Assembly: GCA_903813345.2 (NCBI GenBank)
Contig: CAIIXF020000011.1
Coordinates: 27,148,166-27,212,165 of the forward strand
DNA length: 64,000 nt
DNA from: Owenia fusiformis
Lineage: Eukaryota > Annelida > Polychaeta > Sabellida > Oweniidae
Direction of reading: 5' to 3'
A model generated the notes under the pieces. It ran no database searches and was not told where the DNA came from. It saw nothing but the letters and a program-made list of their open reading frames with translations. Position numbers and translations under genes: made by a program. This document shows positions 422 through 22,400 of this stretch, in pieces (the stretch's first letter is position 1; each line of letters starts with the position of its first letter).

Positions 422-1247
422 AAAGTCATCTGATGAGAGCAAGCAAAATAGTGATCAATTTCAAGAAGACCGAGGCATTGAACCAGGACTAAAAAATAAA
501 CCCGAGACTCAATTTGACCAACAGATACACGTGTATGGCAATCGTGCGTTTCATGAACAAGATGTTGTAAATCGAGTTGAAATTCCCGCTGTTGCTATTA
601 TAAGGCCAATCTCGGAGCAGGCGGGCTATGCCAATATTGATCAACTCAAGAGCAACCCCAGTACATCAATAGCACACCATGAAGAACCTATTGGTACAAA
701 TCCTTTCGTTATCTCTGATAAACCTGAAATTTCTGTGAAACCAAAACTGAGCAATGTGAAATCAGATCAGCACCTAATAACACCAACCATCCTCACTGAT
801 GAAGAATTGGGTCAACTATATGCAACCTCGAACAAGAAGCGTCCATCAGAACCTCACAAATTGGAATCCGAAACTGAACAGAGTGGCATCGTAGAGAACA
901 ACCAGGGAATAGCGGAGGTTTACGCGAAACCAAATAAACTATCACGTAAGAGAAGTGTCCATTTCCATGAGGAAAAAGACACTGTAGTACCTCCAGTCGA
1001 ACAGTATGAGTCATTAGTTAATGAAGATGAGCAATCGCAGAGGTATGGTGTTAATGTTGAACAAGATCTTTCGCTGAATACGAAGCCAGATGAACCATCA
1101 AAGTATGATAAAATACAACTCAATGTGTCGAAATCGATTGGGAAAACTTCCATTGATCCCGCGTATGATAGCATAAAGTCTATCAAAGTTGATGACAAAC
1201 AACCCGGGAATCAAATGTATGTCAACGTGGATAGTATCAGGAACTGA
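422..1247 (+). CDS. R1 terminal exon: tyrosine-rich cytoplasmic tail of a receptor (partial gene)
   Basis: Last coding exon of a gene whose start lies left of the window. It opens after TATTACAG in the same phase as the R2 tail exon; both begin KSSDESKQ, and in R2 a transmembrane exon precedes it. The tail is about 274 residues, hydrophilic, with no domain fold. It carries spaced tyrosine motifs in order: YGNR, YANI, YATS, YAKP, YESL, YGVN, YDKI, YDSI and, just before the end, YVNV. Phospho-YxN motifs such as YVNV and YANI match the Grb2 SH2 class, YxxP the Crk class and YxxL/I the ITAM/ITIM-like class; that is known of SH2 ligands, and use here is inferred. R2 and R3 downstream are paralogues, both keeping traces of the same tail. 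Extracellular part unseen. Confidence 0.75.
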
Positions 1248-2920
1248 ATGTTGGACTTGTGTATAAGTGTTTTTTATTGTCAGCTTTCATGCTTGTCATG
1301 TCGAGCAAAAATCATCTAAACCTATTTTGCAATTATTATATGGAGAAGGAAAGTATAATTTGTAATTCAGTAAAATGGGATTGTTAGATCAGTCAGGTGA
1401 ATTTGGTTGTGATCATGGTTCTTGAGGAAACGGGATGTTAGGACTATTGTTTCTTTGAACATAAGTAATACTTAGGGTTTTGCAAGTTTGTGACTCATGT
1501 GAGCTACGATTGATACTGCACCCTAAGATATTTGCTTACCTTGCCAATGTGCTTACATTTTGTTTATCTTCCAATTCTTGAGATAAGACATCGTTTACTA
1601 AACTTTTAAAAGTAGTTTGCAGATTCGAGAGTACCACAATCCCCGTTTTTCATCGGTTTTCTTTAATAACCGAAATACAACGCTCAATTGTTAAACGCTT
1701 CATGTATAAGTAGTATATTATTTAGTTCCATATAGATTTAAATGGCAAATACATTACTTTAGTCAATGGTTTTAGGCGTTTTGTCTCTATTTCACTTTAT
1801 ATCTTTAATTTTTACTGACTCAGTTCTCTCACTCTTCTTCATTACATGGTCCATTCATGAGCTATGAAGTATGCTGTGATACATGAAGAAATGGTTGCGG
1901 CAGTAAACATCAAATGTCAATTCTGTTTTTTAATGTCTCGGTAATGATTTGTTGTTAACTCATCTTAGTCATCTAAAGTGTTTACATACTTCTTATCTGG
2001 TACTTCCACTTCAAGGAGGTCAAAACTGAAAACGAATCGGCCATTTTAGATCGTAGATGGAAATCCATATTAAAATCTTTTGGACTTTGGAAAGTGTCAA
2101 ATTTACTCCCTGTCCATGAAACCATTTAATATACATTGTCACCAGTACATAATGTTATTATCCCTGGTACTGTCCCTTTTCCAACGGCACATTCAAATTC
2201 CTGGACAAAAGGCGTCATTCTTTTTACCCTCGTTTGCTCACCCGGCAGGATCACCAGGAGCTGTGTGGAACAAATTGTACTAGATGAGATTTACAGGATT
2301 CCTGATTATAAACGGTATAGCGCGCCGTTAATACCAATACAAACTACACTGTTTCCATTAGTTACGATTAAGGAATAGATTAAGAACATGATTGAGATAC
2401 TTGGCTTGATAGGATGGTCGTGGTTTTAACGACAATCTTGTTTCAATTATTTGTGTAAAGAGTGAATTAAGACCCAATACCACGTATCTTTTAACTGTAG
2501 GAAGCTACACACATTATAGACTATTAAATTATTAAAACAATATCATCAGAGTATTGAAAACAATGCATACACAACAATAATACGGCTTGTGGAACACGAA
2601 TTATGGATTGAGTAATGTAACAGTATATGTAAATTTTAGAATATCCAATCAAATAATCTCAACTATTTTAAGATGAAAATTATATTTTTAATGATTTCGC
2701 TTTATCCCTCTTATAATCTACTCGACTGTGTTTACTTTTCAGTAGAGTTTTATCAATTTGTCTATGATCTACTTACCAGAAATTAGGGGACATCACGACT
2801 TGTCAAAATTTCAAGTCTTCTATGAAAATGTAATAATCAGCATTTGATTTTAGCGATTTAACTTATTTGCCGCATTCAAATTCGCAACACTAGGAACGGA
2901 AGCAGGTGCTCGCCGTGGAG
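1248..2920. other. Intergenic between R1 and R2
   Basis: Contains the presumed 3' UTR of R1 and the upstream region of R2. AT-rich. No open frame with domain character, and no repeat shared with the rest of the window, was recognised. Confidence 0.5.
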
Positions 2921-2996
2921 ATGTTTCTAGTCGCCACATTGATTGTCGCCAGTAGTCAAATTAACGCGGTTTTCTCCGTGTGTCATCCTAACGATG
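2921..2996 (+). CDS. R2 exon 1, signal peptide
   Basis: ATG at 2921 begins MFLVATLIVASSQINAVFSV, a hydrophobic leader followed by CHPND. The exon ends GATG|GTAAAT in phase 1. A GTG in frame at 2906 is not a plausible start in an animal gene. Confidence 0.6.
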
Positions 2997-5929
2997 GTAA
3001 ATATCATTTTGTGAACTATGGAGGTGGACTTGGGATATGCGAATGGATGGTTGCCTTAATACACTTATTGAATTCAAAACTAGATTTGGTCTGCTCCGCA
3101 TTATTTGAGACTGAGCTGTATGAGGAGTAGAATTCAATTTGTTGAGCTTGGGAGTTTATGATGTCGTTTTTTCGTCAAGTTCTGTGACACATTCAACATT
3201 AATGAAATGCAATATGCAAGACATTGATTGTTTATTTTTTAATATATCTTCGTTTGGATTATTTAGAATGCAAATTATATGAATAAGCACAGAACTATAT
3301 CTATGAAAATTCGATTTGAATTAGCCTGTGTTTCAGTAAAAGTGTAGCATATTACTGTTGATCGCAACATCCTTTTCCATATGAACATTAACACGATTCC
3401 AGGCTGTCTTAGGCTCTGTGTCGACGGGGTCTTTCGTTTAGAGCGTACATCAAATAAGATAATACACATAACAGAATCCATCATTGGAAAAGGATCTACT
3501 GACCAAGAAGAATGTCAAAATAAGAACATCTATTGCGCTAGATTTGATCAGAGCAGAAAGGGTTTTATAAAAGGTATGTGCAGTAACAAACAAAATTGTT
3601 CATTTCCCTCGAGGATATCTGGGAGATGCTTCGATCGCGTCGAAGTTGATTTTGAGCAGGTTCGCTATGAATGTACAAAACAACAAGTTACACCAAGCTC
3701 TCCTTCTCCAACGTCCATAGTAGGTATGACTACATCACACTCTACACCTCGAACAGAAGTTATTACAACCACGGGGCCACGAAAAACATTCTCAAGGGAA
3801 CATACAACCAGCAATTATGTAGCGACAAGTACAACTGGACCGAACAATTCACGTACGAGGGGGTATCATTAATTAGTGAGACAAGTACCATAACTTTTTC
3901 AAATTTGCTTCAATTGCATTGATATTTTCACCAAATAACATCTTGGTAGTATGCTACATCCTCACGTAGTTTGATTAGTTAACTCTATCATATAGTGGTT
4001 TAAGAGATTTCTATGTGGCGTCATGACCAGTGACCCGGAGCAGTTATTAATATAAAAAAACTTCAAGATTTTACGTCAAATTTTCCAATTTCTCTATATT
4101 TCATGACTTTATGGAATATGTACTAGTATAGTGCCATCTAAGCATACATGCCGAACTATGATATAGCTTGCAAAGTTCAGTAATAGTGTGTCTACCATCA
4201 ATAGATATCATATCTTCAATAAGTTTGATGTTTTCTGGAATCACGGTATCAGCTTTGCGACCACATCTGGGAGCATCAAAAACAGTGTGGTTTCCATTAT
4301 CTTTAAATGTAGAATACCACCTGTAAACAATTGACCGCTTCACATTTTCCTGTCCATACACCTCATGTAGGCCCCTTAAGGTGTCTAGTGCTGGAATACC
4401 TCTGATTGCATTTTATTTTATAACAGATCTTATGTTAACATTGAGTTCTTTGGAATTCATCCCTATTTTAGCCAATTTTGCTCCACCCTAAAGTACTGCA
4501 AAATGGCTGTGTCTCTGATGTCACAGCCATGTGTGACATCATGTACTAGAGATGACATCATAATTGGTTGTGTTGTCATAACAACCACCTCAGGGCACTG
4601 TGTAAACAAAATTTGAAAAGAAACTGTCATTTTGTAAAAAATTACATAGTAAAAAGTGCCCTTGTTTCCGGTAATTTTTAGCTGCTCCACCAACCCCTAG
4701 CAACCGTTGCCATGGTAACTGCTGTTGCTAGGTATCTATGAAAATAAATTAATGAGTGTGTTCATTCAATACCCTATTTCCAAGGGCATATACCTACCAA
4801 GTTTTATTGCAATTGAATGAATATAAGATGCTGCCTCAAAAAAGTCTCACTAATTAATGATACCCCCTCGTAGGTCCACGTTTATCTTTTTTCATTTAAT
4901 ATGCGTCATTGAAGTTATTTTCAACAGTAAACTGGCTGACTGATAACTTGGCAAATGCGGAGTATAATATCATATGACCTTCGCATTCTTTCATGAGTGC
5001 AGGAGAATACATTTATGCCATCGCAACGCAATTTAAAAATCGTTTTTCATAACGTTAAAATTGGATTCACTGGTGAACAATTTGAAACTCACACCAATCA
5101 AAGATGTCTCACTTGCGATTCTATTTTGACAGTATTATATATGATCCATTTATGATAGCATGTCTTCCTTAATATATAACTGCAAATATACCCCATCACT
5201 CTACTATACCTTGCATTTGGTGTTCATGAGCAACCCATTTGGCTTATTAGTAACAATTATGTTATTTGTTTTCATTTGTCTGTTCCTTATTAATGGTTTT
5301 ATCGGTTGAAAGTTAGATGTTAATAAGGTACTTTCAAAAATATACTTAACAATGCAATTAGACAAACAGAGTATCTTATGCATTTCTAGGGGTTAGGTAT
5401 AGTAGAGTGCCTATATACAAGTTTAGCATGTAACATTCCAGCGCTGGTCGTCCTGGTGGTTGCATCATTTGTCCTCAATATCCTGATCATCATAATTCTC
5501 TGCATTTTCATTGCATGTGTCATCAGAATCTACAGGTATAGTAAATATTTTTTGACATATAACTTCCTGTTTTTGTTTGTAAAACATCTGAGAAAATGAA
5601 ATTCAGACTGACATTTCTGATAATTGTACGCGAATATATTTTTGGTGTCCACATTATGAATGTTTTCATATTACAGAAAATCATCGGATGAAAGCAAACA
5701 ACAAAGTGACCAATTTAAAAGCGATTGTCACGATTCAACAAAAATAGACCGAGACAGTGAACCAGGACTAAGCGTTAAACCCGAGACACGACATGAACAA
5801 CATGAATTTCCAGCTGTTCCGATTATAAGTTCCATTTCGAGGCATATACAAAAAGAAAACGACAATGTGGTACCAACAGAAGGTCATTATGAGTCAATTA
5901 ATGAAGACGAGCAGTCATTGAAAGCGTGA
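2921..5929 (+). CDS. R2: SUEL-like lectin domain receptor with one TM helix and shortened tail (4 exons)
   Basis: Model join(2921-2996, 3403-3852, 5442-5535, 5677-5929), 873 nt, 290 aa; intron phases 1,1,2. Order: signal peptide; a domain of about 100 residues with Cys spacing and end motif (CSNKQNCSF ... VEVDFEQVRYEC) resembling the SUEL/Gal-lectin fold; Thr/Ser/Pro-rich stalk suited to O-glycosylation; a 25-30 residue hydrophobic helix; cytoplasmic tail of 83 residues ending shortly after YESI. Type I surface receptor by prediction. A second in-phase donor at 3723/3724 would give a 247-aa form with a shorter stalk. A mariner element sits at the exon 2 donor. The tail lacks about 110 residues present in R1 and stops early, so signalling may be reduced. 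Ligand unknown. Confidence 0.6.
3403..3852 (+). CDS. R2 exon 2, SUEL-like domain and stalk
   Basis: Acceptor ATTCCAG at 3396-3402, then GCLRLCVDGVF. Eight Cys between the exon 1 junction and the end of the domain; the CSNKQNCSF segment and the closing VRYEC correspond to the C-x-G-x-x-x-C and V-x-Y-x-C features of SUEL lectin domains. The Thr/Ser stalk follows. Donor CAC|GTACGA at 3853 is weak because the mariner begins 3 bases later; TAG|GTATGA at 3724 is the alternative. Both are phase 1. Confidence 0.6.
3856..4870 (-). mobile_element. mariner-type transposon, non-autonomous, 1015 bp
   Basis: Bounded by perfect terminal inverted repeats of about 27 bp (tip CGAGGGGGTATCATTAATTA) and flanked on both sides by TA (3854-3855 and 4871-4872), the mariner target duplication. 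The minus strand keeps a relic of the transposase N-terminus but no recognisable DDE catalytic region, so the copy looks internally deleted. It sits in the R2 intron with its edge touching the exon 2 donor. Confidence 0.85.
4101..4460 (-). pseudogene. mariner transposase N-terminal relic
   Basis: Reads on the minus strand as a helix-turn-helix of the mariner type: a segment ending LHEVYGQENVKRS, then the typical IVYRWYSTFKDNG, D-x-P-R-x-G-R, and a second helical part. One in-frame stop lies upstream of the VYGQ segment and no catalytic DDE domain follows, so it is non-functional. Confidence 0.65.
4871..5441. other. R2 intron 2, remainder
   Basis: Starts with the second half of the original splice donor (TA then GGTCCACG). 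Nothing coding seen until the acceptor AACATTCCAG at 5432-5441. Confidence 0.5.
5442..5535 (+). CDS. R2 exon 3, transmembrane helix
   Basis: Acceptor ACATTCCAG, donor TACAG|GTATAG. The 94-nt exon encodes one hydrophobic run (LVVLVVASFVLN, then LIIIILCIFIACVI) closed by R-x-Y-R, a stop-transfer pattern. Enters in phase 1 and leaves in phase 2, like R3 exon 3. Confidence 0.65.
5677..5929 (+). CDS. R2 exon 4, truncated cytoplasmic tail
   Basis: Begins KSSDESKQQSDQF, aligned with the R1 tail. Compared with R1, the segment holding YANI, YATS and YAKP is absent; the text rejoins at the shared DNVVPTEGHYESINEDEQS (R1: DTVVPPVEQYESLVNEDEQS) and ends at a stop after SLKA. One tyrosine motif (YESI) is left. 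A full-length tail would need the relic that follows. Confidence 0.65.
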
Positions 5930-6091
5930 TAACAATGTTGAACAGGAACAAGTCTTGAGTGCGAAGCAAGATGGACAATAAACAGATAAAAGTATAATAA
6001 ATAACAACTCAATCTGTCGAAGTCGATTTAAAGATGTCCCATCATTGATCCAAGCCTGCGTTACGTAAACGTGGACGGTATCGGGAACTGA
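5930..6091 (+). pseudogene. Relic of the distal R2 tail
   Basis: After the R2 stop the DNA still resembles the distal R1 tail: AATGTTGAACA, then AACTCAATCTGTCGAA, then TACGTAAACGTGGAC and GGGAACTGAATGTTAGAC, matching R1 bases coding YVNVDS and its stop. Frameshifts and stops lie between, so this is decayed coding sequence now in the 3' UTR. Confidence 0.6.
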
Positions 6092-8569
6092 ATGTTAGAC
6101 ATGTGTTATTGTATTAGTATGTTAACTCTCACACTTGTCATTTAAGTAATACCTATTTTGAAATAGGCTCCTTTTAATTAAAGTAAGAGTGCCGATTAGT
6201 GTATTCTAGAAAATACGATATAAGGATGGCCCACTAAAGATGGGACGCTTTCTGAATCTTAATAACTTTTTTACCATCACTGGTATCTCACTGTAATTTT
6301 ATACAATTGATTTTTGTGGTATTATCTGCTGTTTTAAACAAGTAAGTAATACTTCAATTTGTGCTTAAAATGACTACCCTTGCCCGCACACAGAGCCTGG
6401 CTCGAGCATACCACTGTTTCACCGATGAACGCAAATTTGTGGGAGGGCATTCCACTCCTCGTGTACAACTAATTGTGCCACGTGGTGAATTGTCTGTTGT
6501 AAACAGCACGCTCTATCGATGTGTTCGGAATTCTAAATAGCGGAAGTACACATGGCGCATGCGCAAAACATGGCGCAAAACACATTTTAAGTTTGTTTGA
6601 TCATGTGACAATGGCATGAAAAGTCACGCGATCCCTGTTAGTCGACAAACAGGTTGTTCGATATTGCAACTTCAAACTGTCGGATAAATTTATGCAAATC
6701 AATAGGTTAATCCGGTAGCCGGTAGCCGCTATTTGCACTTAAAATGATTGATTTATTCATTCTAAAAATGGGGCTGGTATCACTGTTTGAGTGTGCTTCT
6801 TTCAGCATGTTTATTCAAACATGTTCATTTTCTAGAGTGATCGCAACTTGATTGTGTACTTCAAATCTAAACTGGTTTGAATATCCACAAATGCTGAATA
6901 TTAACAAATCGGAGGCAAGCCATCACTATATACTGTACTGTATACTGTACTAGTACATAAGAAAGATGCTTCCATTTTGATATTGATCTATTATTGATAA
7001 ATGACATAATGATAGACATAAGGAGGAACGCAAGTGCAAATTATAACATCCTAAACTAGCTTACAAAGACATAAGGCCATATGCCTCAGTCAAATATGAA
7101 CTATGGCAACTGTACGGCAGCCATAGCTTACCAAAATTGAGAGTATATGCAGCATAATATATATTAGGAAGCAGTACGATGGAAATGTGTGAAGCTACGG
7201 CCCCCATACGACCGCCTTAGAGCAAATGTGAATGAACCTTTACTCTCCCACGCCTCTCGGTTAATTGAGGTGTTCATGAAGGTAAATAAAGTAGACACGC
7301 TGTAACCACCACCCTGTCCCACATCAATATGAAACTGAATGCATCTTTTAACTTGTTTAACCTACTATTTTAGTATTTTCGATATTTTATCTAATTTCAT
7401 TTTTTCTGCAACGTATTGTGATGACATCAGTATGAATGAAATGTCAGTTCTGATTTTGGTTTTAGATCGTGGTGATTATTTTTAAATATTTGGGCGGGGG
7501 CGGGTGTTGCTTTTATTATATACTGGTAGGATAGACCATACTTTTCAAATTAATAGGGGCTTAGTGAGGTTATTGGTGGTTCATCATTACTCGGGTGCTG
7601 TCACGCAGATATTAATATTTTCTTGCTAAGTTTCGTTTGGGAAAGGTTCTTACATATCGTTGACCTTCAACTCTTTGGGTAGAGCAATATTTAATAAATT
7701 CAATAAATTGTATATTCAATATAAAGATAGCACAAAAACATTAAGCTATGCCGAGTGTAAAAATGAATTAAGGTTTTATATTCTTGATCTTTGTTTTGAG
7801 AGACAGGGAAACTCTCTATACACTCTAATTCAATGGGATTTGCCAATGTTATCGATAAGTTCATTTTTCATTAAAGGCAAGATAACAGTGTACTCGTTTA
7901 AGACAATGCAGAAATAAAAAGAATATCCCGTTACTGAAAGGCACGCAGCTTACTCCTATACCTTATCTGGTCTTTAATAAAAAAACTTTCCTTGTGATAA
8001 CAAGTCGAACCTATACTATGTATAACTTAACACTGGAGTAAAACTTATCAATGTAAATCGTAGAGATCCTGGTGACCATATGAATTATCTTACGCACCAT
8101 GTCATTGCGACCTGTGTTTACTTACATTGTTTTCTTACTTGCAATATTTATACTTCGTTAATTTTGACAAACATTTTTATAACTTCGTATTTTTGATTTA
8201 ACGTCAGTTATGTGAAAAGAACGTGTACTTATAAACAAAGAGCAAGGACTATCAATAGATGGTTTACCAGTCTGTCCTTGAACTTAAATCCACCAAAAAA
8301 TGTAAAACGAAAATAAAAAATGAACAAATATAAAGCAGTGCAGCTTGACATGTTCTTTGTTGGCATATTGCAGTATAGTGAATACAATAAGCTAAAAACA
8401 TACGAATCTGAGTCACTCGATCTCTGTATGTGTTCACTTCCTCTTTATAAAATGTGATTCATCTCGTATACGATAAATCCTTGATCAGAGTTCTCTTTAG
8501 TATCGTTTGGTGATGTTAGTGCTTTATATGGATAAGATAGGATTCAGTTGTTGTATGTAGGCATAAACC
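6092..8569. other. Intergenic between R2 and R3
   Basis: AT-rich, no supported gene. The open frame at 7660-7917 has no recognisable domain and no splice context. No copy of the window's repeats was recognised here. Confidence 0.45.
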
Positions 8570-8630
8570 ATGTGGATTATCTTGTCAGTACTCTTACTTT
8601 GGGGAGACACGGCAGAGGGACAACATAGAA
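8570..8630 (+). CDS. R3 exon 1, signal peptide
   Basis: ATG at 8570 gives MWIILSVLLLWGDTAEGQHR, a short leader with a hydrophobic core and a plausible cleavage after the Ala of DTA. Donor AGAA|GTATAG, phase 1. Confidence 0.6.
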
Positions 8631-11600
8631 GTATAGTATTCTTTTACTTTAAAGTTTCAATGGCAGCAAACAATATTAGAGAATCTAAAATATATGAAGC
8701 AAATTTTTCAAAAGTATTCCAATTGTTTCTTTTTTAACCCATTATCAGAAGGTGAATCTGAGATAGCCAAGATCATACGTGGAATGAGAACATAAACTAG
8801 AACAGTAGAATGAAATTTAATTGATAGTTTATCACAGTCATATCATGTAGTAAGATGTAGCTGATTTGGATATAAACAAACAAATCAGAAAACCAATTGG
8901 TCGAATATTGCTATTACTTTTATCAAATAAAAATTCAATTCTGTAAGGGCATTTAATTGAAATACCATGATTTTTTGTTTTTGCAGAAGATATTTGTAAG
9001 GAAGGGTGTTTTGAAGAAGAGATTGCCTTAAACGACTGTCGAGATGACTATTTGATAAATATAACTGAAGTTTCTAATCTATATAAGAAATGTGATTCTT
9101 GCGATCAAAACAATTGCGATCTAAACAATCAATGTTATAACCTTAAACAGATAAGTGATGATTACCGAAGATGTAACAGAAAGAAAAGATGTTTCTTGCA
9201 AATTCACTACGTTCGCAAAGAAACATGTGCTATTGATAAGCGAAATGAATACATCAATTTCCAAAGAATTTGCTATGGATGCATTCCACCCGATATAAAG
9301 ACTACAGAAGCACCTGTAACTAACGCAATAACGTTCACAACAGAAGGATATAGAACATCAACATCAGAAAAAACACAAGTTACAACTACAGGTACATGCA
9401 AACGTGTGTATTTACAAATTAAATCTATGTAGGCGGGCCAGTATGTACTTTTAAAGATGCATTTGTGACATTAGTCAATTTTTTCGAAAATTAGCTGTCA
9501 CATATGGTATTAATCACGATAGGATTTGTATTTTACGCTTAAAATTCAAGGTATTCGATCTTGTTCAATCCATGTAAAAGAGCAATCAATTTTAGGCAGA
9601 ATCAGACCTCACCCCCCCCCGACAATTGAAAAACACCTTTAATCTATTTATTACCTCAGACACTAAAGTCCCCAGACATCATCATATAGCACCCCCCCCC
9701 CCAAAGAAAAAAGAGAAAAACTGTTCTTTTATCTTCTCAGTTTTATCTTTTGTCTAACACTTTAAAAGAGCCAAGAAGTCACCAACATAATGTACACTCC
9801 CGTCCATATGTTTGGCAACCTTTACTCCCCCATTGAACTACGTGTTAAAGCCTCTTTACGATTGAATTTTTATTTACTTACCCTGCGATATAATACGTAT
9901 AACATTAATAGACAACGGAACTTGACTTTATTTACAATTCAAAAATTCATTTTTCGCCTTCTGTGTTATTTCAATGGAAGAGTTTTTTAAAAGACAATTT
10001 TGATCCCTATATCTATAGACCCTGAAAAAACGTTTCAATTTTTCGTTAAATAAAGTTAGCAAATTCAATTGCCTACCTAATTTGTATTTTTTGCAAGGAC
10101 TCGGATGGTTGGATATTTTGTCAAATGACTTGCGGCAACCCTACCATTTCCCATTTGTTAACATGAGAATGTCAATTTTCAAAAAATTCATAAAATTTAT
10201 CATCAATTTTTGACCTATTAATTGAGGAAAAAAGATGAGAAAATTTGGAGGTATTGGAAATATAGTCAAGTTACGTTTCTATTAATATCATAAATATTTT
10301 CATCGCAGGTTAAGTAAATAAAAATTCAAACGTAAAGAGGCTTTAACATGTATTCCAATGGGGAGCTAAGGTTGTCAAACTTATGGAGGAGAGTGCACGT
10401 ATTTTATGGATTGGTCAAATTTCCTAGAGATATGGGCTATATCTTCTTCACCTTCCTTCTCCGTAAAAAGTGATTTTTGTCCAGAAAAGGCGTCTTGAAT
10501 TGCATCCCCCCCTAAGAATAATGATTAAAAATATTTTATCCAGTTCCATGTATTGACTCAAACAGATTTGAAGGTCAATGAAATAACCAAATAAATATCT
10601 TGAATCGGTAAAATGAGGTGGTTACCCTATGCACACAAAAATAAATTCGAATGATTTTTTTAGTGGTCAGAAATCTCCAAATAACATGTTAAAATCATAA
10701 TATATTTAGTACCAATTACTTTGATATTATATTTTTATCCAGCAGGTTCGCATCTAAATACAACCATTCAAATAGCAGTTGGTGATCGTATCGACAATGT
10801 AGTCATAATAGCAACTGTTATAGCTGCATGCATAGTGGGAATCGTAGCTGTGACAACCATTATTTGTGTTGTTCTATATGTAAGGTATGTTTTTTAATTG
10901 TTTTTCCACTGTAAAAGTAACAACTGAAACCTTGTTATTAGTATCGATTTTTATCTAATCCCGATTCTAGAAAACGTTTTTGGAATAATTGAATACATCC
11001 GATGCGTAGGTTATTACACGTCGCACGAAACTGGGGACAATAAGCGTAACATTATGGCGTCAAAATACCAAAACAATGAGCAGCAGTATAGGGCGCAAAC
11101 AGCCTTACAACGTCAAAATCGACGAGCGTCACATTTTTTCAAGTTTCAAGAAAATACTTTATCCTTATTTAATCATGATAAAATTCACAGAGTAGCAAAA
11201 TCTCGAGGACAGTATTTCTAAAATGTTTTTGAATTTCGAAAAACGGTCAGGAAATTGAATTGATATGTATGGAACTTGTGGTAAAAATCGATGCGTCACA
11301 TTTTTCAAGTCTCGAAAATCAGCTCTTATTTTAGTAGTATTTGCGAAATAAACAAACTGGTTATTGTTTTGTAAATTTCGCCGTGACAATATTGTGCAGT
11401 TATTTTTTTTCAAATTAGACCTAAATTAGAAAAACCTTAAGACAATTTAAGGTCAAAACCGTTACGCAATTGTGAAGTCATAAATGCACATGTTCCATTG
11501 AATGAAATGTGAAATCTTAGTGGGATTCTGGTCATTATTTCAAAAGTTATCCCGATTTCAACGAGCCTCGTAAGCTTAAAGTGTTACGTCTTACAGCGTA

Positions 11601-13224
11601 TATGACGATATCTGGGTATATTTAACTTTAAAATATGGTAGATCCCATCTTTTCAAGGAAAAATAATTTCACTGAAATGCAAATAAAAAATACTACAAAA
11701 TGATATATAAAACACATAGTTAGCTTTTCAGGCAGAGATTAACGCTTAAAGCTGAGATTACCACGCATTTCCCGAATTGTCCCCAGGTCTGTCCACGTCA
11801 TACAGGGTGGTCAAAAAACGGAAACCCTGCATTTTCCTCATAATCTTTGTCATTTATTACTCCATGATGTTTCACACATTTGTAAATCATTCAATTCCCT
11901 ACCACCCTACCATATTTCATGACCATCAGACTGACAGTCACAATTTTACAGCACTTTGAACAACATGCTGCAGGTTTGGCCATCATCGTGCAGTAGGTAA
12001 ATCTGCACATTTGTCAATGGCTCAAATGCATTCCTCAGCAGGTATGGCCTGAATGATACAGATGATCTCACTTTAGAGGTTTGCAATTGTCCTGATGTCA
12101 TTCTTATACACTCTATCTCTGCCATATCCCCATAAGTAGGGACAGTTTGGACGACATGTGCAGGTTTCTCTACAGCGCAATAGTGGCCACCAGGAATGTT
12201 CTTTAAAGTGCTGTAACACTGTGACTATCGATCTGATGGTCATGGAATAAGGCAGTCAGGTAGGAAATTGAATGATGTACAAATGTGTAAAGTCATTTCT
12301 TAGAATGACAAAGATATTAAGAAAATGGTGTAAGGGTTTCCAGTTTTTTGACCACCCTGTACAAGCGTAAATTGTATTCGTCTTTTCAGAAGAAGAGCTC
12401 TCAAAAGGAACATCGGTATGAATGTATACAAGGAGTGTGGTAAGGACGATTCTTACGTTCATCTTTCCGACAACGCAACACAACTCGAACATGAATCCTC
12501 TTCGCAAAAAAACTCGAATGGCATCAACTTTTGCGTCAGCGAGAATACAAATCATGACGAGACAACTGGACCACAGGAGCACAACATTGATTCAGTTCTA
12601 TGTGTGCATCCAAAGGGACTGGTATCAGCATATGAAGAAGTTGATCTTGACATGAATACCCAGCAAAACGAACCAGTCCGATCAAATACCAAAGACGATA
12701 TGACTTCGGCTTTAGCATATGAAGATGTTGATATTGATCAACAAGATACATCAGGCCAGAGTGGTGAATCCTTGAACAAGCCACCACATAGCAACAGTTC
12801 TGATATTATAGCCATGGACAAATCAAAAGCTGGATATGAAGAGGTTGACATAGACAACAATAATCCAAATATCTCCATTGATCAGCTTTACTCTAAGCCA
12901 TTTAAAAAACAACACCAGGATTCGAGTGAAATTGCGGCATTGTACGCAAAACCAAACAAAGGTCCACGTGCTTTAACAAAAGACCCAAACAGTGCAATAC
13001 AAGATACCAACAAGCGTGTTGCTTTAAACGATGGAAAAACACCACTGTTGCAACATAACGAAGCAGATCAGACGAATCATTCCCAGGAATATTACTCATG
13101 TCCAATAGATGTTGATCCCACATATGTAGATGATAATGGAGACGATTATGACGCGTTGGCCCTGGGTAATAGAAAACGTCCCCCGGAACTTGGGGATGAT
13201 TATTCCCATTTAGGAAAAAGATAA
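8570..13224 (+). CDS. R3: SUEL-like receptor with long tyrosine-rich tail (4 exons)
   Basis: Model join(8570-8630, 8987-9391, 10746-10884, 12390-13224), 1440 nt, 479 aa; phases 1,1,2 as in R2. Order: signal peptide (MWIILSVLLLWG); Cys-rich extracellular domain of about 100 residues, a diverged SUEL-like fold; Thr-rich stalk; one TM helix; 278-residue tail. Tail motifs: YKEC, YVHL, three acidic repeats YEEVDLD, YEDVDID, YEEVDID, then YSKP, YAKP, YSCP, YVDD, YDAL and YSHL at the C-terminus. YEEV resembles the Src-family SH2 ligand class, YxxP the Crk class, and the last two YxxL look like a widely spaced ITAM. This suggests a phosphotyrosine scaffold receptor; ligand and kinase unknown. Its introns carry at least three MITEs. 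The tail shares YAKPNK with R1. Confidence 0.7.
8987..9391 (+). CDS. R3 exon 2, SUEL-like domain and stalk
   Basis: Acceptor TTTTTGCAG at 8978-8986. Starts with KDICKEGCFEEE; ten or more Cys, with RRCNRKKRCF and the closing INFQRICYGC at positions matching the end of SUEL domains. A Thr-rich stalk follows (TTEAPVTNAITFTTEG). Donor ACAG|GTACAT, phase 1. The Cys pattern is diverged, so the fold assignment is less sure than for R2. Confidence 0.55.
9795..10395. mobile_element. MITE family M1, copy A
   Basis: In R3 intron 2. Tip CACTCCCGTCCATATGTTTG, other end matching its inverse (CTTATGGAGGAGAGTG). TA precedes it. Shares its body with copies at 33706-34571 and 56241-56935, for example the GTTAAAGCCTCTTTACG block near both ends. 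No coding capacity. Confidence 0.75.
10746..10884 (+). CDS. R3 exon 3, transmembrane helix
   Basis: Acceptor ATCCAGCAG, donor TAAG|GTATGT. Encodes a short juxtamembrane piece (GSHLNTTIQIAVGDRIDN) then a hydrophobic helix (VVIIATVIAACIVGIVAV, TTIICVVL) ending YVR. Phase 1 in, phase 2 out. Confidence 0.65.
11031..11786. mobile_element. TIR element family M2, copy A
   Basis: In R3 intron 3. Ends are CTGGGGACAAT and its inverse ATTGTCCCCAG, with further weaker inverted similarity outside (ACACGT / ACGTCAT). Body shared with 27321-28151, including GCGTAACATTATGGCGTCAA. No transposase seen. Confidence 0.65.
11803..12359. mobile_element. MITE with mariner-like TIR, 557 bp
   Basis: Tips CAGGGTGGTCAAAAAACGGA and the inverse TTTTTTGACCACCCTG, flanked by TA on both sides (11801-11802 and 12360-12361). 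The inner arms are also inverted copies (CATGACCATCAGA.. near both ends), so most of it can fold back. It ends 30 bp before the R3 tail exon. Confidence 0.8.
12390..13224 (+). CDS. R3 exon 4, tyrosine-rich cytoplasmic tail
   Basis: Acceptor CGTCTTTTCAG; begins RRRALKRNIGMNVYKECG, a basic membrane-proximal stretch. Eleven or more tyrosines, mostly in acidic context. The triplet YEEVDLD / YEDVDID / YEEVDID is spaced about 35-40 residues apart, an internal repeat. The exon ends DDYSHLGKR then TAA. Confidence 0.75.
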
Positions 13225-14202
13225 GGTGATACCTGACAATTAATAATCAAATACAAACCCAATCAAAATATATTTACATACATTAAGGTATTGCATGAGA
13301 ACATTAAATTAAGGACTTTTATGATATTTAACTTGCCATGCAATGAAATTCAATAAGAAAGATGCTATATTTCATTTATGACTCCATAACAGGCAACGGC
13401 AGACCGATACTTTACCTCATGTGCTCCAATCTAGACTCAAAAAAATTAGTTTCATGTTCTGAGAGTGGCTAGGGAGCGATAAAGACTGATTTAGCAGTTG
13501 AATCCCCGTTCTAATTTATCTTTTGATTCACTTATATCTAGTTTATCGTATATAGAGTAATATTGCATAGATTGCATTCGTTATCCCTGATGATGATGCA
13601 CGTCCTCAAATATGATTAATTACTTTAAGGATGCAATCACGTTTTGTTTACTTCCATGAAGTTTTAAAATAAAGTTTTCATATAGCTCAGTAATGTTTCG
13701 CATCTGGGTCACCATGACACATTACCTATTCCAGATTTTCAGAACAAGGTTCTGCTGACTTTTCAACACATCACGATTTCCATGGTGAAGTTAATTTTAG
13801 CATTTCCTTAAAAGTCAAATCACGCAGTTTTGGAGTGGGAATTTATTGGTTGCGGATGTGCAATATTAAACCACGCATTGTAATCTGACGAATTAATGTT
13901 TTTAGTCTAGCACGAGTAGAAGTCTCCATTTGAAAGTATGTATATTTTCGAAATGTATGTGTCATTTTAATGTATGTTTTTAATTTAATCATATGTTTTT
14001 GAATGATTATTAGTTTATGCTTTTATTAAACAATAAATCATACATTCTACCCCCTATATTGTATATATTTACCTTCGAATAAATGTTAGTTTTATCTTCT
14101 CTGATTAACCGTGTACTTCGATGTAACTTTAAGGATTGGATATACATGGTATATTCGAGTCTCAGATCTGGAAAATAACACAGACAAAATACTGAAATCA
14201 CT

Positions 14203-14730
14203 GGTGATCCACTCGATTACGCTGGTTACCAAAACGGTTCGTTTTGGTAACAAAATGTCGGAACATCGAAGGTAGGATTTTTCTCGTTTCCTTATTTTAT
14301 ACGTTGTAGGCAGAATTCCCACGTCGTTTTTTAACACAAACGTGTATCAGTATCATATGTTTAAGAAATTGTACATATTTGCGAACAAATAGTTCAGAAG
14401 ACAACAGAATCGTCGATTTACTTCCTCACTTAAGTTACATAAACGGTTTGGGTTAAAAGTGCAGATCTTCACTGTTTTTCGAAAAACCGTTTATGTAACT
14501 TAAGTGAGGAAGTAAATCGACGATTCTGTTGTCTTCTGAGCTATTTTTTCGCAAACATGTACATTTTCTAAAACATATGATACTGATGCACGTTGTCAGA
14601 AAAAAACATCGTGGGGATTCTGCCTACAACGCGTGTAATCAGGAAAAAAGAAAAATCGTGCATTCGACGTTCCGACATTTTGTTACCAAAACGGGTCGTT
14701 TTGGTAACCAGCGTAATCGAGTGGATCACC
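14203..14730. repeat. Long inverted repeat (hairpin), arms about 250 bp
   Basis: The left arm begins GGTGATCCACTCGATTACGC and the right arm ends with its inverse GCGTAATCGAGTGGATCACC. The inner parts (for example TTACTTCCTCACTTAAGTTA) match exactly; small gaps lie midway. A loop of about 30 nt lies near 14450-14482. A fold-back MITE is the simplest reading; no open frame of its own. Confidence 0.85.
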
Positions 14731-17211
14731 TGTGGAAATGATTTGTACCACTAGTATTTACTATGACCTAACTATCCTTTGCTTGTCTCGTGTAAACAAA
14801 TGTTTCACACGACTTTATGAACAGTTGCTATGGTAATTAGTATAATAGTGATTTGAATGCATAATGTTTATGGTAAAAGATAGGAGTATATCGAGGAGTT
14901 CACTAAACATGGTTTTTTATGATATTAATTAATTATCATTTAACGTTTTTTGCAGTAATTATAAATAATATCAATGTATGTTTCAGGTTACGCTGACATG
15001 GTATTTCAATATTTCCAATATAATCAAGTTTTTGCAATGTTAAACTTGGTTTTATCTACTGACATCTTTAATGAATCAGAATAAAGTTAAGGAAATTATC
15101 CAATGAATATAATTATGGTGGACCTGGGGTGTGGGCCCTGAAAAAATGGGCTCAAAAAATGTGGGCCGAAAACTTTTCTAAAGGTGGGCCTTGAAAGGCC
15201 CTATTCTATAATTTTAAGCCAAATTATCAGAAAAATGGGCCTTAAATCTTTAAAATTTAGGCCCTTCTGACCTAAAAGTGTTTTCAGACTTCGAATATGC
15301 CCCCCCCCCCTACCTAATTGGTTCCCGGCAATGTTGGGGATATGTGTGTGACTGCAAAAAAATACGATAACTACATGAGGAAGCAGGAAGAGCACTTTCT
15401 AGCTGAGTAAACGGGAGGTACAAAATCTGTTGTTCAAATGTTGCTATATACCATTTTGAAACTGAGAGTCACTTTTGAGGATCTGACCTACTTTCGGAGG
15501 TGCCCTTTCGGAGGTTCACTAGTTACAAAGATGGCTAATTTACCGTAAACCTTATGGGAATCGATTTACCATTTCGGCGACAGGTATTTAAGTCATATTA
15601 CTATATGGTACTCCGGAATATGAAGAATCCGTAGCACATTTTAGCGCAGCAACATTTGAACCAATATTTAAAGAGTTGAATATGTCTTGTTTTTTGAAAA
15701 TGCTGAAAAAACTTGCAGCTTTCAGGTCGAAATATGTCTATCATCACAAGGGGTCAAAAACATAAACATTTGCATTCGAATTAATTAGTGAAATTACATT
15801 TGCATGCTTTGTAGCTTTTTCAAATACGAGTGGAGCAGATTCAACAAAATTAGGCGAAAGATTTGGGTAATTCATGATTGCCGAGTTAATATCAGGCTTT
15901 ACTATGTACAACATTTTGTTACAAGAATTTATTCCTATCATCGCAAGGGGTCAACCAACAATTTATTGTTATGTTTTACAAGACATAAGACAATAACAAA
16001 TAGGTAAGATTTATATCTAATTAAATATTACAGAGGTATCGGAATGTTTATATATTCCAAGGGCATGTCTAATAATCTATAAGAGTCATGTGTCATTGAA
16101 TCCCTTACATTTTTCCTCAACCTTACCGGCGCTGGCTATCATCACATTTTCTGATGAATATTTCTCCTTTGACATTACTGCTGGTTATCATCACATTTTT
16201 GAAGATAATGATAATAATTTTTCTTGAACATTCGTGAATTCTGTGTTTTTTGACAAAAATAATCTCAACTTAGGAACCCCCAAACATATATTTAAAATTC
16301 ATCTCATATACGTAAAGGTCAAATACTTAATTTACGAAATTGAACTCACTATTGATTCTCAGAAAATCCTGATAGATATAGTGATGCAATTTGTACAGGC
16401 CTGTTATAAGTTTCCATCAAATTAATTAATGTTATTCTCATTTGTATCTTGTGACAACCCCCCCCCCCCTCCCTCCCAATCTCTCACATTACCAATAAAC
16501 CATCTATGGTTACTGTAATTAATCCTCTATTGTAATTTAAACTACCTAGAATGCCTATGGCGATTGGTAGTAGATATTTTGTGTATTTTTTGATTATGAA
16601 GGAAATAAATAATATGTTAAAAAAATATTATAAATAGCATTATGTACTCCAAATTGGAAAAATGAGGTTTAGTGAATTGTTGACCCTTGGTAAGGACAGG
16701 GATAACTCAGCCTAAGATCTGGAACTATATTGAACGGCTATAATGAAAACAATACTTGACAAAATTGTAAATATAAGGTCAAATCGCTGCTCTATTTGGT
16801 GAGAATATGACAAGGGTTTTGGGAAGTCGGAGGGCCACTTGTTCGCTATAATTTTTCTGAAAGGTGATGTAATTCTGCATCAATTCATGTAGTTTGTTTC
16901 TTTTTATTTTGTGGACAAAGAATTTAGAGCATTTTTATTCCCTAGAGTAATATTTTATGGGAGGGGTAACGATGATCACATTATCATTCTATAACATCAA
17001 TCAAATATTTGCTATAGTACTGATTTCTACACTATGTCACTAGTACAGTGGCTAAGTGTATCTTAAAATTATAGAGAGATGTGTTGATTGGTTTAGGAGA
17101 AAACATGATTTAAAGAAATTAATGAGCATATCTTCGTTCATATTTTAGTCTCTTTTTTTGTTTTTGCACCTTCGGAGAAAAATTGAGTAGTGATAGTGCT
17201 CCAAGTAGTAT

Positions 17212-17640
17212 TCAAAAATCATTTCTAATCTGTGTGACATTGTTATTAGTAATGACATCATAAATAAACAGTGGTTTCTTTCCTTCCCTCCTGGCCCCTA
17301 GGGACCTCCACCCTAAACATGAAGTGACTTTGATTGCACTTGTCCCTTGGATACATCCACTCACAATTAATGCTGACCAATACTGGATTATTTCCAATTT
17401 AGAAAGTAAATTTAAATTTGCACAATGAAATATGATATTACCATATTCTAACTGAGGAAGTATGAATGCCATATAAATCTTCTCTAGATGTTTTGATCTT
17501 AACTTATGTTTCAGTGCCATAAGTAGGTTCAACGTCCTGTTACATTTAACAATAATATTATTAATGTGTTCCTCAAAATTCAAAGACTGGTCTAAAATAA
17601 TTCCAAGATGTTTGTGACAACAAGTAAATGGAATAGAGTC
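17212..17640 (-). mobile_element. LINE fragment, reverse transcriptase C-terminal part
   Basis: The minus strand reads HKHLGIILDQSLNFEEHI, then KCNRTLNLLMALKHKLRSKH, LEKIYMAFILPQLEYGN: the thumb-side region after the catalytic core in Jockey/CR1-like reverse transcriptases. The LINE at 59503-61215 carries the same layout (KHLGLNLDKHLNFNYHI). Catalytic motifs are absent. Confidence 0.7.
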
Positions 17641-18266
17641 ACCATTTAATATAACTCATATAAATCATTCATTTAGTATTTACATTTGATAGCTTTTTCA
17701 ATTCTGGTATATTGATATGCATTGTCTTTGATATCAATATTTTTTCATGAATCGTAATACAAATTGTTTTTGGGGGCTCTCAGAAAAAGGATAATATGTT
17801 GGGGTTTGATCATGTGTGTGATTGAGTTGGTTTTTCAGACATTACAATTTTCGATATTTTCTAGGTCGATATTCGGACTCATTCCCTGACTCATCCTTTC
17901 ACACCATGGGCTATCATCGTAGTGGGCATGTCAGTGCCTCGTAGTTTTAAAACAAAAGCTTAAATTAACAGTGATCTATTTGAGATACTCTCCCCTCAAA
18001 AGGTTTGACAAGACTAGTATTTTAGTGTATGTTAAAGTACAAGGGACAATGAAAACGTTTCTTACCGTTGGTTCTAGATTTTATAAGTCTTAGAATAAGT
18101 CTTAGAGGAGTTGGATGCTCAAACTTTAGTACGAGCCAGTGCAGTTAGTTTGCTTGAAACTATGAGTTTAATATAAATTGGTTTATTGGTAGTGGCACAT
18201 AGTAACAATACATATTGTCAATGATTGCATGATTTATAACACTCTGTTAAGCTGCAGTTCTGGAAA

Positions 18267-19452: not shown

Positions 19453-22400
19453 GTAGGTATAAAAATTACATCTTCGAATATTTCAGAAATTATTTTTATT
19501 TTCTTCAAAATTATGTTATTAATTTAATGATTATGATGTAATTATAATGGAAAAAATAAACATCCTTTTAAGGTTGTTTTGACTTCCTTTTACTTTCTAA
19601 TACAAAGGTAAGCATAAAGAGAGTAATAATAACCGTCTTTGCAACATATTTCATTTTTCAACACGTTAAAGATGAAATTAAAGTTAAGCTCATAATCAAT
19701 TGACCGACCCCGCATGGGTATATATCCAGTAACTTTATAAATACTTCGTATTTAAGGACAGTTTTAGCTGAAATGAGCAAAAATGCAAGAGATACATGTA
19801 CATCTAAATGAATGAATTTGTTGGAAATCTTCGGACAGATAAATAGTATATAATTAAAGTAACAGAACGTTTGATCATTTTCCTTAGGCCAATACCAGTG
19901 TGAGGTGGGGAGTGAATATAATGGCAAATGCTACCACTTTGATGCAACGTTATCCACATGGTCAGATGCTGAAGTTTCATGCAACGGATTCACAGGTGGT
20001 CGTTTAGCAGCAGTTCATTCTCAAGGAATATTTGACTTTGTTAAAGACACGATAAGGTAAGTGGTACAAAGAAACGGGTCATTAATATAACAAAATGTCA
20101 CCAAGAATGGACACTCGTGCACAGGTACGAATACAAAGGCATTTTTCTCATTAGCCTCAGTCTATAGAATGCCATTTTCATCTCTTCGTAATAAAATTGA
20201 GGATGAAATAAGCTAAAACGTTGCATGCAACGGATTCACAGGTGGTCGTTTAGCAGCAGTTCATTCTCAAGGAATATTTGACTTTGTTAAAGACACGATA
20301 AGGTAGGTGGTACTAAGAAAAAATTACAATTAGTTTTAGGGGAAACATTGATCGGAATGTTGACCATGGAACTGCTGGCCGTAAATAAACAAGCCCCAAC
20401 ATGTCATACAATAATCTTAAGTATGAAGAGCCCTCCAGCCATTATTAATTAAAATGATTTATGATGTTTCTAAAATGAGCAACTGATACTGAATATTGTT
20501 AATAATCACAGATAGCGGAGGGCAATGTCCTACAAATTGGCACAGCTATCAATCAAGCTGTTACTCATCCAGCGGAACTGCAAACGCAACATGGGAGAAT
20601 GCAAGAATTGCTTGTGCTAGTCAAGGTGCCCATTTGGCTACTATAACATCAGATGGCGAAAATACCAATGTGGCATCATGGCAGTAAGTGCTCAAACTGC
20701 CCATGTGTATATGTTTAAGGCCTCGTGAATTGTTTGAGACAATTAGACTCCTAGTAGACACCTTTGCCTCGTACCTTGTTTGTAATGAAAAGTTAGCAAT
20801 TCACGAAGAACGTAAATTTGTTCTGATTCAGCTGGAGCAATTAACTATCTAAAAATTCTAATGTTTGTGTTAATTTTGCTGAAATTGAAATATTTGAAAT
20901 ACAACTCCTAGAACAATTTGTATAATTGAACATTGTTTCCGGAAATGTTCAAAACAATTGTAAAAATTAAGAGAATAAAAGATGTTTTCAAATTTTGCAT
21001 GGGACTTTAATCGTATCATATTTGTTAGTATTGCATAGTTCGTTTTATACAGGTCGTCTTGGCATTGGTACGGCTTAAAGCGGGGCTTGTATTTCTGGAA
21101 TGGTAGGGCATCTTTCGCAGACTGGCTGAAATGGAAAACTGTCCCGTCGTCAAACTTATTAATGTCTCAAAGTTGTGTGCTTGCTGATGTATCAAATCTA
21201 GGTCTTTGGAAAACTGGTTCATGTAGCAACACACATGGGTTCCTTTGTGAATCTCAATTGGGTAAGATTTGGTTGAACAAATGCAATGAAATGAAACATG
21301 AAATGTCAACTGTGAGATCCAGTATCAAACAAATAAGGATACAAGATTGCTATAATAATTATAATGTCCAATCTGTTTTTTAGTTGACATCGATGAATGT
21401 GCACAAGGATCGCATAATTGCCACCAAGATGCAATTTGCGCAAATACAGACGGAAGTTTTGACTGTAATTGCAATCCAGGATACTCCGGGGATGGTGTAA
21501 CTTGTACAGATGGCGATGAATGTATCTTGAACACTCATAACTGCGACATTAACGCTGTTTGCAGTAATCTTCCAGGATCATTTTCGTGTAATTGCAATCC
21601 AGGATACTCCGGAGATGGTGTAACTTGTACTGATGACAATGAATGTATCTTGAACACTCATAACTGCGACATTAACGCTGTTTGCAGTAATCTTCCAGGA
21701 TCATTTTCGTGTAATTGCAATCCAGGATACTCCGGAGATGGTGTAACTTGTACTGATGACAATGAATGTATCTTGAACACTCATAACTGCGACATTAACG
21801 CTGTTTGTAGTAACATCCCAGGATCATTCTCGTGTAATTGCATACCAGGATACTCTGGCGACGGTGTATCTTGCACAGATGACGATGAATGTACTCTGAA
21901 CACACATAACTGCGACATAAACGCTGTTTGTAGCAACATCCCGGCATCATTTTCGTGCACTTGTAATTTTGGCTACACTGGAGATGGTGCACAGTGCCAA
22001 AGTAAGTGATACATCGAAAATAGTTCGCGCACGTATTGTTACACATTTTCGCTTTTTAACACGACAGAATGTGACGTTTTTTGAGAAAAATGTACACATT
22101 TGGAAATCCTTTCGTCCTCCACATTGCCTCTATATCTCAAAATATTCAAGACGAATAATTCTGATATCGTATACATATTATCAATGGGTAAGGGGCATCA
22201 TAAAACACGAATCATAAACCCCAGTCAATGCAATTCAATGTAATCACAGCTGTATATCTGAATATAGATGGCACGTGTGTAGACTGATTTCTCTAAGCAA
22301 AAAAAATAACTATAAAATCCAAAAGATGGCAGTGTTTATATCACTTCTCACATTGAAATCTTTCTGCAAAGCCGGCCACATTTTGACCAAAATGTACCGG

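Follow-up and report, generated by a model that had tools for sequence, protein, structure and literature searches.

Candidate single-pass receptors with SUEL-like ectodomains and tyrosine-rich tails encoded in tandem in Owenia fusiformis

Does a gene cluster of the annelid Owenia fusiformis join a lectin-like ectodomain directly to a cytoplasmic tail suited to tyrosine-based signalling? The question is raised by a stretch of 64,000 nucleotides, hereafter the window (GenBank assembly GCA_903813345.2, contig CAIIXF020000011.1, positions 27,148,166 to 27,212,165, forward strand), within which all coordinates below are counted. Three genes, R1, R2 and R3, lie head-to-tail on its + strand at 422-13224, the interval that a preliminary description of the sequence had correctly marked out for the cluster. 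We think it reasonably likely that together they make up a tandem gene family for animal surface receptors of single-pass type I topology, in which a Cys-rich, SUEL-like domain is combined with a tyrosine-bearing tail that acts as a scaffold for SH2 proteins. At the level of sequence, this is supported by the exon structure and transmembrane segments of R2 and R3, by the non-random tyrosine motifs of R1 and R3, and by coding constraint on the tail type of R1 and R2. Our best reading is of a divergent family of putative lectin-like, phosphotyrosine-scaffold receptors that includes one short-tailed paralogue.

Gene layout and tails

The models of R2 and R3, whose GT-AG borders were picked by eye, and the single visible exon of R1 comprise the following features, listed with one insertion and one relic.

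422..1247, + strand: R1 tail exon, starting in phase 2; 275 aa with nine Tyr, including YANI, YAKP, YDKI, YDSI and YVNV
2921..2996, + strand: R2 exon 1, putative signal peptide; hydrophobic N-terminus (hydropathy 1.81), ending in phase 1, in-frame join
3403..3723, + strand: R2 exon 2, phase 1-1, joined in frame; encodes the Cys-rich domain, which is SUEL-like, and a short stalk
3854..4872, no strand assigned: inferred mariner-like transposon copy between the SUEL-like and transmembrane exons of R2; inverted ends, with TA at each end
5442..5535, + strand: R2 transmembrane exon; phase 1-2, in-frame join, hydropathy 3.41
5677..5929, + strand: R2 tail exon, truncated; 84 aa with one Tyr (YESI), then a stop
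5930..6091, + strand: relic of an R1-type tail after the R2 stop; stops and frame changes, with a YVNV-bearing C-terminus at its end (tblastn)
8570..8630, + strand: R3 exon 1, ending in phase 1; encodes the N-terminus, a short hydrophobic stretch that is probably a signal peptide
8987..9391, + strand: R3 exon 2, phase 1-1, joined in frame; encodes a Cys-rich domain of weak SUEL likeness and a stalk rich in Thr/Ser
10746..10884, + strand: R3 transmembrane exon; phase 1-2, in-frame join, hydropathy 2.96
12390..13224, + strand: R3 tail exon; 278 aa with 12 Tyr, among them three YE[ED]V-D, two Y[SA]KP and three acid-preceded YxxL; in-frame join

The preliminary description had given all three paralogues an ectodomain, a stalk, a transmembrane helix and a long tail, a plan that is complete in R3. 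The predicted R3 protein of 479 aa, spread over four exons, runs from a hydrophobic N-terminus through a Cys-rich domain and a Thr/Ser-rich stalk to one transmembrane segment and the 278-aa tail; the join between its exons 1 and 2 was read by hand from the listed donor and phase. R2 yields a predicted protein of 247 aa with exons joined in frame and one strong transmembrane segment, and its tail is cut short by the stop that precedes the frame-broken relic. The intron phases (1, 1, 2) are identical in the two genes, and in both predicted models the ectodomain, a single transmembrane segment and the tail share one frame, as in a single-pass type I protein. At a hydropathy cut-off of 1.6 in a 19-residue window, the N-terminal stretch of R2 lies above the line and that of R3 below it.

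The R1 tail exon sits within an open frame (414-1247) whose acceptor (...tattacag, then A) is like that of R2. No ectodomain, stalk or transmembrane segment was seen by eye in bases 1-421, and the R1 transmembrane segment and ectodomain presumably lie beyond the left edge of the window. A cluster of three complete receptors was rejected, given that R1 contributes only a tail exon here and the R2 tail stops early.

The mucin-like stalk reported earlier is clear in R3 and, in R2, depends on the donor used: it is about 16 residues long with the donor at 3723, and a Thr-rich open stretch continues from there up to the mariner-like insert. That insert carries an inverted repeat (3851-3882/4844-4875, 97%) and a weak Mos1 helix-turn-helix match on the - strand (4101-4412; E 0.0046, with 17.5 bits where the cut-off is 24.1). 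By eye, there is a second acceptor, also in frame, upstream of the R2 transmembrane exon (5421-5441); it would match a donor of phase 2 at the insertion site, and the insert may for this reason have hit an older exon-intron border. Intron 3 of R3 holds a repeat element with inverted ends (11801-12361; 27-nt arms, 89%, outer ends TA) that stops 28 bases before the tail exon, and just downstream of the gene, at 14199-14734, lies a large inverted repeat whose 251-nt arms are 88% complementary and separated by 34 nt.

The R2 tail is homologous to the R1 tail (BLASTP 3e-13), and the R1 exon shows an excess of third-codon-position differences against it. Over 71 codons before the R2 stop, taken from five hand-picked ungapped blocks with the gapped parts dropped, the differences fall 11/11/29 by codon position (P 0.0005 for the third-position excess), with dN 0.22 and dS 0.65 (NG86). 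After the stop, a block of 87 columns has 6/8/5 and no such excess, and for this block only the contrast between the two parts reaches P 0.03. Because the excess is found before the stop and is absent from the longer block after it, we take the R1-type tail to be genuine coding sequence, and the part lost from R2 looks unconstrained. The R1 branch alone could be the source of part of the constraint before the stop. R2 may be a short-tailed receptor, or a copy on its way to decay.

All of the tail motifs named in the preliminary description (YVNV, YANI, YEEV/YEDV, YAKP/YSKP, YDAL and YSHL) are present, and the tyrosine contexts of the R1 and R3 tails are not a product of chance. Sixteen of their 21 Tyr (nine in R1, 12 in R3) are followed by Asn at +2 or by I, L, V, M or P at +3, with 6.4 expected; that number was reached in 0 of 10,000 full shuffles and in 1 of 10,000 with the Tyr positions fixed. 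The same context follows nine other residue types (F, H, S, T, K, D, E, N, Q) in 0-40% of cases, versus 76% for Tyr. Acidic residues before Tyr are not enriched in the two tails (15 of 21, expectation 12.7; P 0.22).

Among individual classes, Y[DE][DE][VI] has three instances in R3, with 0.03 expected. YxN exceeds chance in R1, with three sites (P 0.02), and is missing from R3; for YxxP the counts are three in R3 (P 0.02) and one in R1 (P 0.48). The two tails have one tyrosine peptide in common (GIAEVYAKPNK/EIAALYAKPNK, 1 of 2000 shuffles) and are otherwise unalignable (best BLASTP E 0.013). The label 'ITAM-like', once attached to YDAL and YSHL, has to be dropped: the immunoreceptor tyrosine-based activation motif (ITAM) pattern Y..[LI].{6,12}Y..[LI] has 0 matches in either tail. 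R3 has instead three hemITAM-like, acid-preceded YxxL sites (DDSYVHL, DDYDAL and DDYSHL; 0.14 expected in R1 and R3 together, P 0.002), with the qualification that this was one of eight patterns tried and that only two acidic residues precede each YxxL. The tail motif scan returned no matches to the immunoreceptor tyrosine-based switch motif, YxxM or NPxY. The inhibitory consensus (ITIM) is matched three times (SAYEEV and LAYEDV in R3, SKYDKI in R1), and these sites are not clearly above chance because 0.97 are expected (P 0.07). We take YxN, YEEV, YxxP and acid-preceded YxxL to belong to the Grb2, Src, Crk/Nck/RasGAP and Syk classes of SH2 site. On these statistics, the earlier picture of phosphotyrosine-scaffold tails has good support for R1 and R3; for R2 it is wrong.

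Ectodomains and SUEL profiles

For R2, the resemblance to SUEL, or rhamnose-binding lectin (RBL), domains goes beyond the Cys pattern on which it was first proposed. In a scan of 24,736 Pfam families, the trimmed R2 core finds PF02140 as its top match, below threshold at 14.3 bits (E 0.056; Pfam cut-off 31.4 bits), and none of ten shuffles of the core, which like all the shuffles in this section preserve the Cys positions, matches that family. A profile of nine animal SUEL domains from the PDB gives R2 9.7 bits, a score reached by 3 of 2000 shuffles, and R3 6.9 bits (61 of 2000). When nine bacterial and viral SUEL domains are added to the profile, R2 scores 11.0 (3 of 5000) and R3 0.3 (1811 of 5000), and 1196 out of 200,000 random pairs of shuffles attain the summed score of the two, an outcome due almost entirely to R2. 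Against single sequences, the shuffles that reach the observed score number, per 3000, 3 for R2 and 40 for R3 with latrophilin-1, 70 and 51 with CSL3 domain 1, and 9 and 475 with SUL-I domain 3; latrophilin-1 is thus the best single-sequence match of R2 among the three tried.

Other searches were less productive. Pfam scans of the raw exons gave no SUEL match, and the best Pfam matches of R3, SLATT_6 (E 0.029) and zf-TAZ (0.39), were judged to be chance. Searching the PDB with the ectodomain stretches by phmmer returned nothing for R2 and, for R3, three chance-level matches (COP9 subunit, CTPR). By eye, R2 has no clear equivalent of the Glu, Tyr, Gly and Lys through which latrophilin-1 contacts rhamnose (parts of PMC2430599). 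The motifs YGR and DPC do not vary across five SUEL rows but are absent from R2 and R3, and because of this we call both SUEL-like and not members of the family. With these motifs gone, neither ectodomain would be expected to bind rhamnose. We hold R2 to be SUEL-like with moderate confidence and R3 with low confidence, the scores of the latter being weak and dependent on the profile; what links R3 to R2 is chiefly the structure of the gene and where it lies.

Proposed signalling and its alternatives

In the account that we favour, the gene plan would open with an exon for the signal peptide, continue with a symmetric (phase 1-1) exon encoding a putative SUEL-like ligand-binding domain and stalk, and close with a transmembrane exon and one large tail exon. 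Ligand would cluster the receptors, and their tails would then be phosphorylated by a Src-family, possibly also a Syk-family, kinase. Once phosphorylated, the YxN, YEEV, YxxP and acid-preceded YxxL sites would recruit several SH2 proteins of the Grb2, Src, Crk/Nck/RasGAP and Syk classes, with the probably disordered tail serving as the scaffold for these adaptors. R2, as the short-tailed copy, would retain ligand binding while lacking the majority of the docking sites. It is tempting to go further and imagine a paired system, in which R1 and R3 signal through a multi-SH2 tyrosine scaffold and hemITAM-like sites and R2, whose coding constraint persists as far as the new stop, serves as a ligand-binding decoy or modulator, which would be a counterpart of Dectin-1/CLEC-2 logic outside the C-type lectins; we consider this extension unlikely.

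A number of results weigh against the favoured account. Both ectodomains fall below the PF02140 cut-off, R3 with no match to the family at all; a longer R2 stretch ranks SUEL third (11.0 bits, E 0.56); and Pfam scans of the joined, full-length proteins found no SUEL match, giving nine weak and mostly transmembrane-type matches for R2 and one for R3. The two ectodomains resemble each other weakly: their score is attained by 225 and by 196 of 5000 shuffles in which Cys is fixed. AlphaFold2 gave no confident fold for R2 with R3 as its sole partner, the C-terminal cysteines being misaligned (pLDDT 41), and remained at low confidence with a SUEL-seeded alignment from which R3 was left out (pLDDT 50.5); two alignments of R2, R3 and SUEL rows misaligned R3 and were not used for folding. 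The preliminary description had proposed that the lack of any SUEL match or fold would tell against its assignment, and what emerged, a sub-threshold match for R2, none for R3 and no confident R2 fold, falls short of an outright absence. As for the tails, the contrast across the R2 stop drops to P 0.09 once a second post-stop block is added (43 columns, 3/0/4, partly past R1's own stop), and short motifs are no proof of SH2 binding.

That the Cys-rich ectodomains adopt some other small disulfide-rich fold is a serious possibility, though one we lean against. It would agree with the missing Pfam match and unstable scores of R3, with the loss of YGR and DPC from both ectodomains and with the uncertain R2 structure, but the score of R2 exceeds that of almost every Cys-preserving shuffle, both with the two profiles and with latrophilin-1 as the only reference. 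In addition, the 13 best PDB matches of the seeded R2 model are all SUEL/RBL chains (best 5h4s, E 0.014, TM 0.43, rmsd 6.9), a partly circular result that we count as weak because the alignment was seeded with SUEL rows. Turning to the tails, some YxxPhi sites could be endocytic signals instead, and the whole family might consist of endocytic or scavenger lectin-like receptors whose Tyr are clathrin-adaptor sorting signals and not phosphotyrosine docking sites. Uptake would suit lectin-like ectodomains, and there are 11 Yxx[ILVM] sites in R1 and R3 where 3.84 are expected; yet clathrin sorting usually needs one or two sites, and it leaves unexplained the three YxN of R1, the four YxxP of R1 and R3, including the common YAKPNK, and the repeated YE[ED]V-D. 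We regard this explanation as improbable.

We are equally sceptical that these are inhibitory receptors whose ITIM-like sites, SAYEEV, LAYEDV and SKYDKI, recruit SH2 phosphatases. Beyond the three consensus matches, this idea has an invertebrate precedent in amphioxus BbLcLRR, whose ITIM or ITIM-like tail motifs are phosphorylated by Lck (parts of PMC8211107), but the matches do not clearly exceed expectation and the majority of the tyrosine sites are of other types. Finally, we find it very doubtful that the cluster is largely decaying, with R2 a pseudogene that has a transposon inside and a broken tail, and R1 and R3 perhaps likewise. The truncated R2 tail with its relic, the mariner-like insert and the inverted-end element just upstream of the R3 tail exon all point in that direction; however, the R3 exons are all open and joined in frame over 479 codons, the third-position excess in R1/R2 is present before the stop, and the insert is intronic in R2 if donor 3723 is used.

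Related receptors and surroundings of the cluster

The favoured account, of single-pass receptors with SUEL-like ectodomains and SH2-scaffold tails, has relatives on both of its sides. EVA-1/EVA1C (C21orf63), a Slit co-receptor, is likewise a single-transmembrane surface protein with an RBL-type ectodomain, of two RBL domains (parts of PMC2430599), and was overlooked in the earlier statement, which had SUEL proteins known mainly as soluble egg lectins or as ectodomains of adhesion GPCRs. In contrast, the R2 and R3 models have one divergent Cys-rich domain each, and the general Pfam scan of both found no EVA1-family domain. EVA1C does carry that domain and, to our knowledge, has no comparable tyrosine array. 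Latrophilin/ADGRL and PKD1-like proteins are also membrane receptors whose extracellular part includes an RBL-type domain (parts of PMC2430599). GPCR, OLF, GAIN and REJ domains were all missing from the Pfam scan of R2 and R3, each of which has one predicted transmembrane segment. Latrophilin, in comparison, is a seven-transmembrane protein with OLF and GAIN domains, and PKD1-like proteins too are multi-transmembrane with further domains. CSL3 and SUL-I show a partial resemblance in Cys pattern and sequence, mainly to R2, but they are secreted and consist of tandem RBL domains with YGR and DPC, whereas R2 and R3 lack these motifs and are predicted to be membrane-bound.

Tyrosine-tailed lectin receptors have been described in another marine invertebrate, the oyster, where CgCLec-TM1 and CgCLec-HTM are transmembrane lectins with a hemITAM, Syk association being stated for CgCLec-TM1 (parts of PMC13027682). 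These proteins differ in having a C-type lectin domain, whereas the present models combine an ectodomain that is SUEL-like with a long tail of many motifs. The cytoplasmic tail of amphioxus BbLcLRR is tyrosine-phosphorylated by Lck at several sites (parts of PMC8211107), but there the ectodomain is of leucine-rich repeats and the motifs are inhibitory, ITIM or ITIM-like. Among the matches listed in open PMC text, no title or abstract opening describes a SUEL receptor with a tyrosine tail, which does not prove that none exists.

The cluster looks like a new combination of already known parts and not like a new kind of system, and it would overturn nothing, because single-pass SUEL receptors and tyrosine-tailed invertebrate lectin receptors are each already known. 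If the favoured account is true, an ancient lectin-type domain would have become coupled to adaptor signalling through tyrosines independently of the C-type lectins. The split into long- and short-tailed copies would then be as in paired immune receptors, and the locus would offer a compact, testable case of signalling-tail evolution by tandem duplication and truncation.

Searching the window against Rfam gave 0 matches at gathering scores. The window as a whole contains spliced genes, exons for EGF_CA, C-type lectin and PAN domains, and reverse transcriptase and mariner-like remnants. A retroelement remnant occupies 59507-60981 on the + strand, with an RVT_1 match (E 9.5e-12) in 59507-60418, and a stretch at 17212-17655 on the - strand appears retroelement-like by eye, with no Pfam match. 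EGF-repeat exons lie at 21365-22009, 31264-31867, 48587-51211 and 58463-58771, in tandem genes that also have C-type lectin and PAN exons; the frame at 48587-51211 spans 874 codons and, judged by eye, contains about 20 near-identical EGF repeats.

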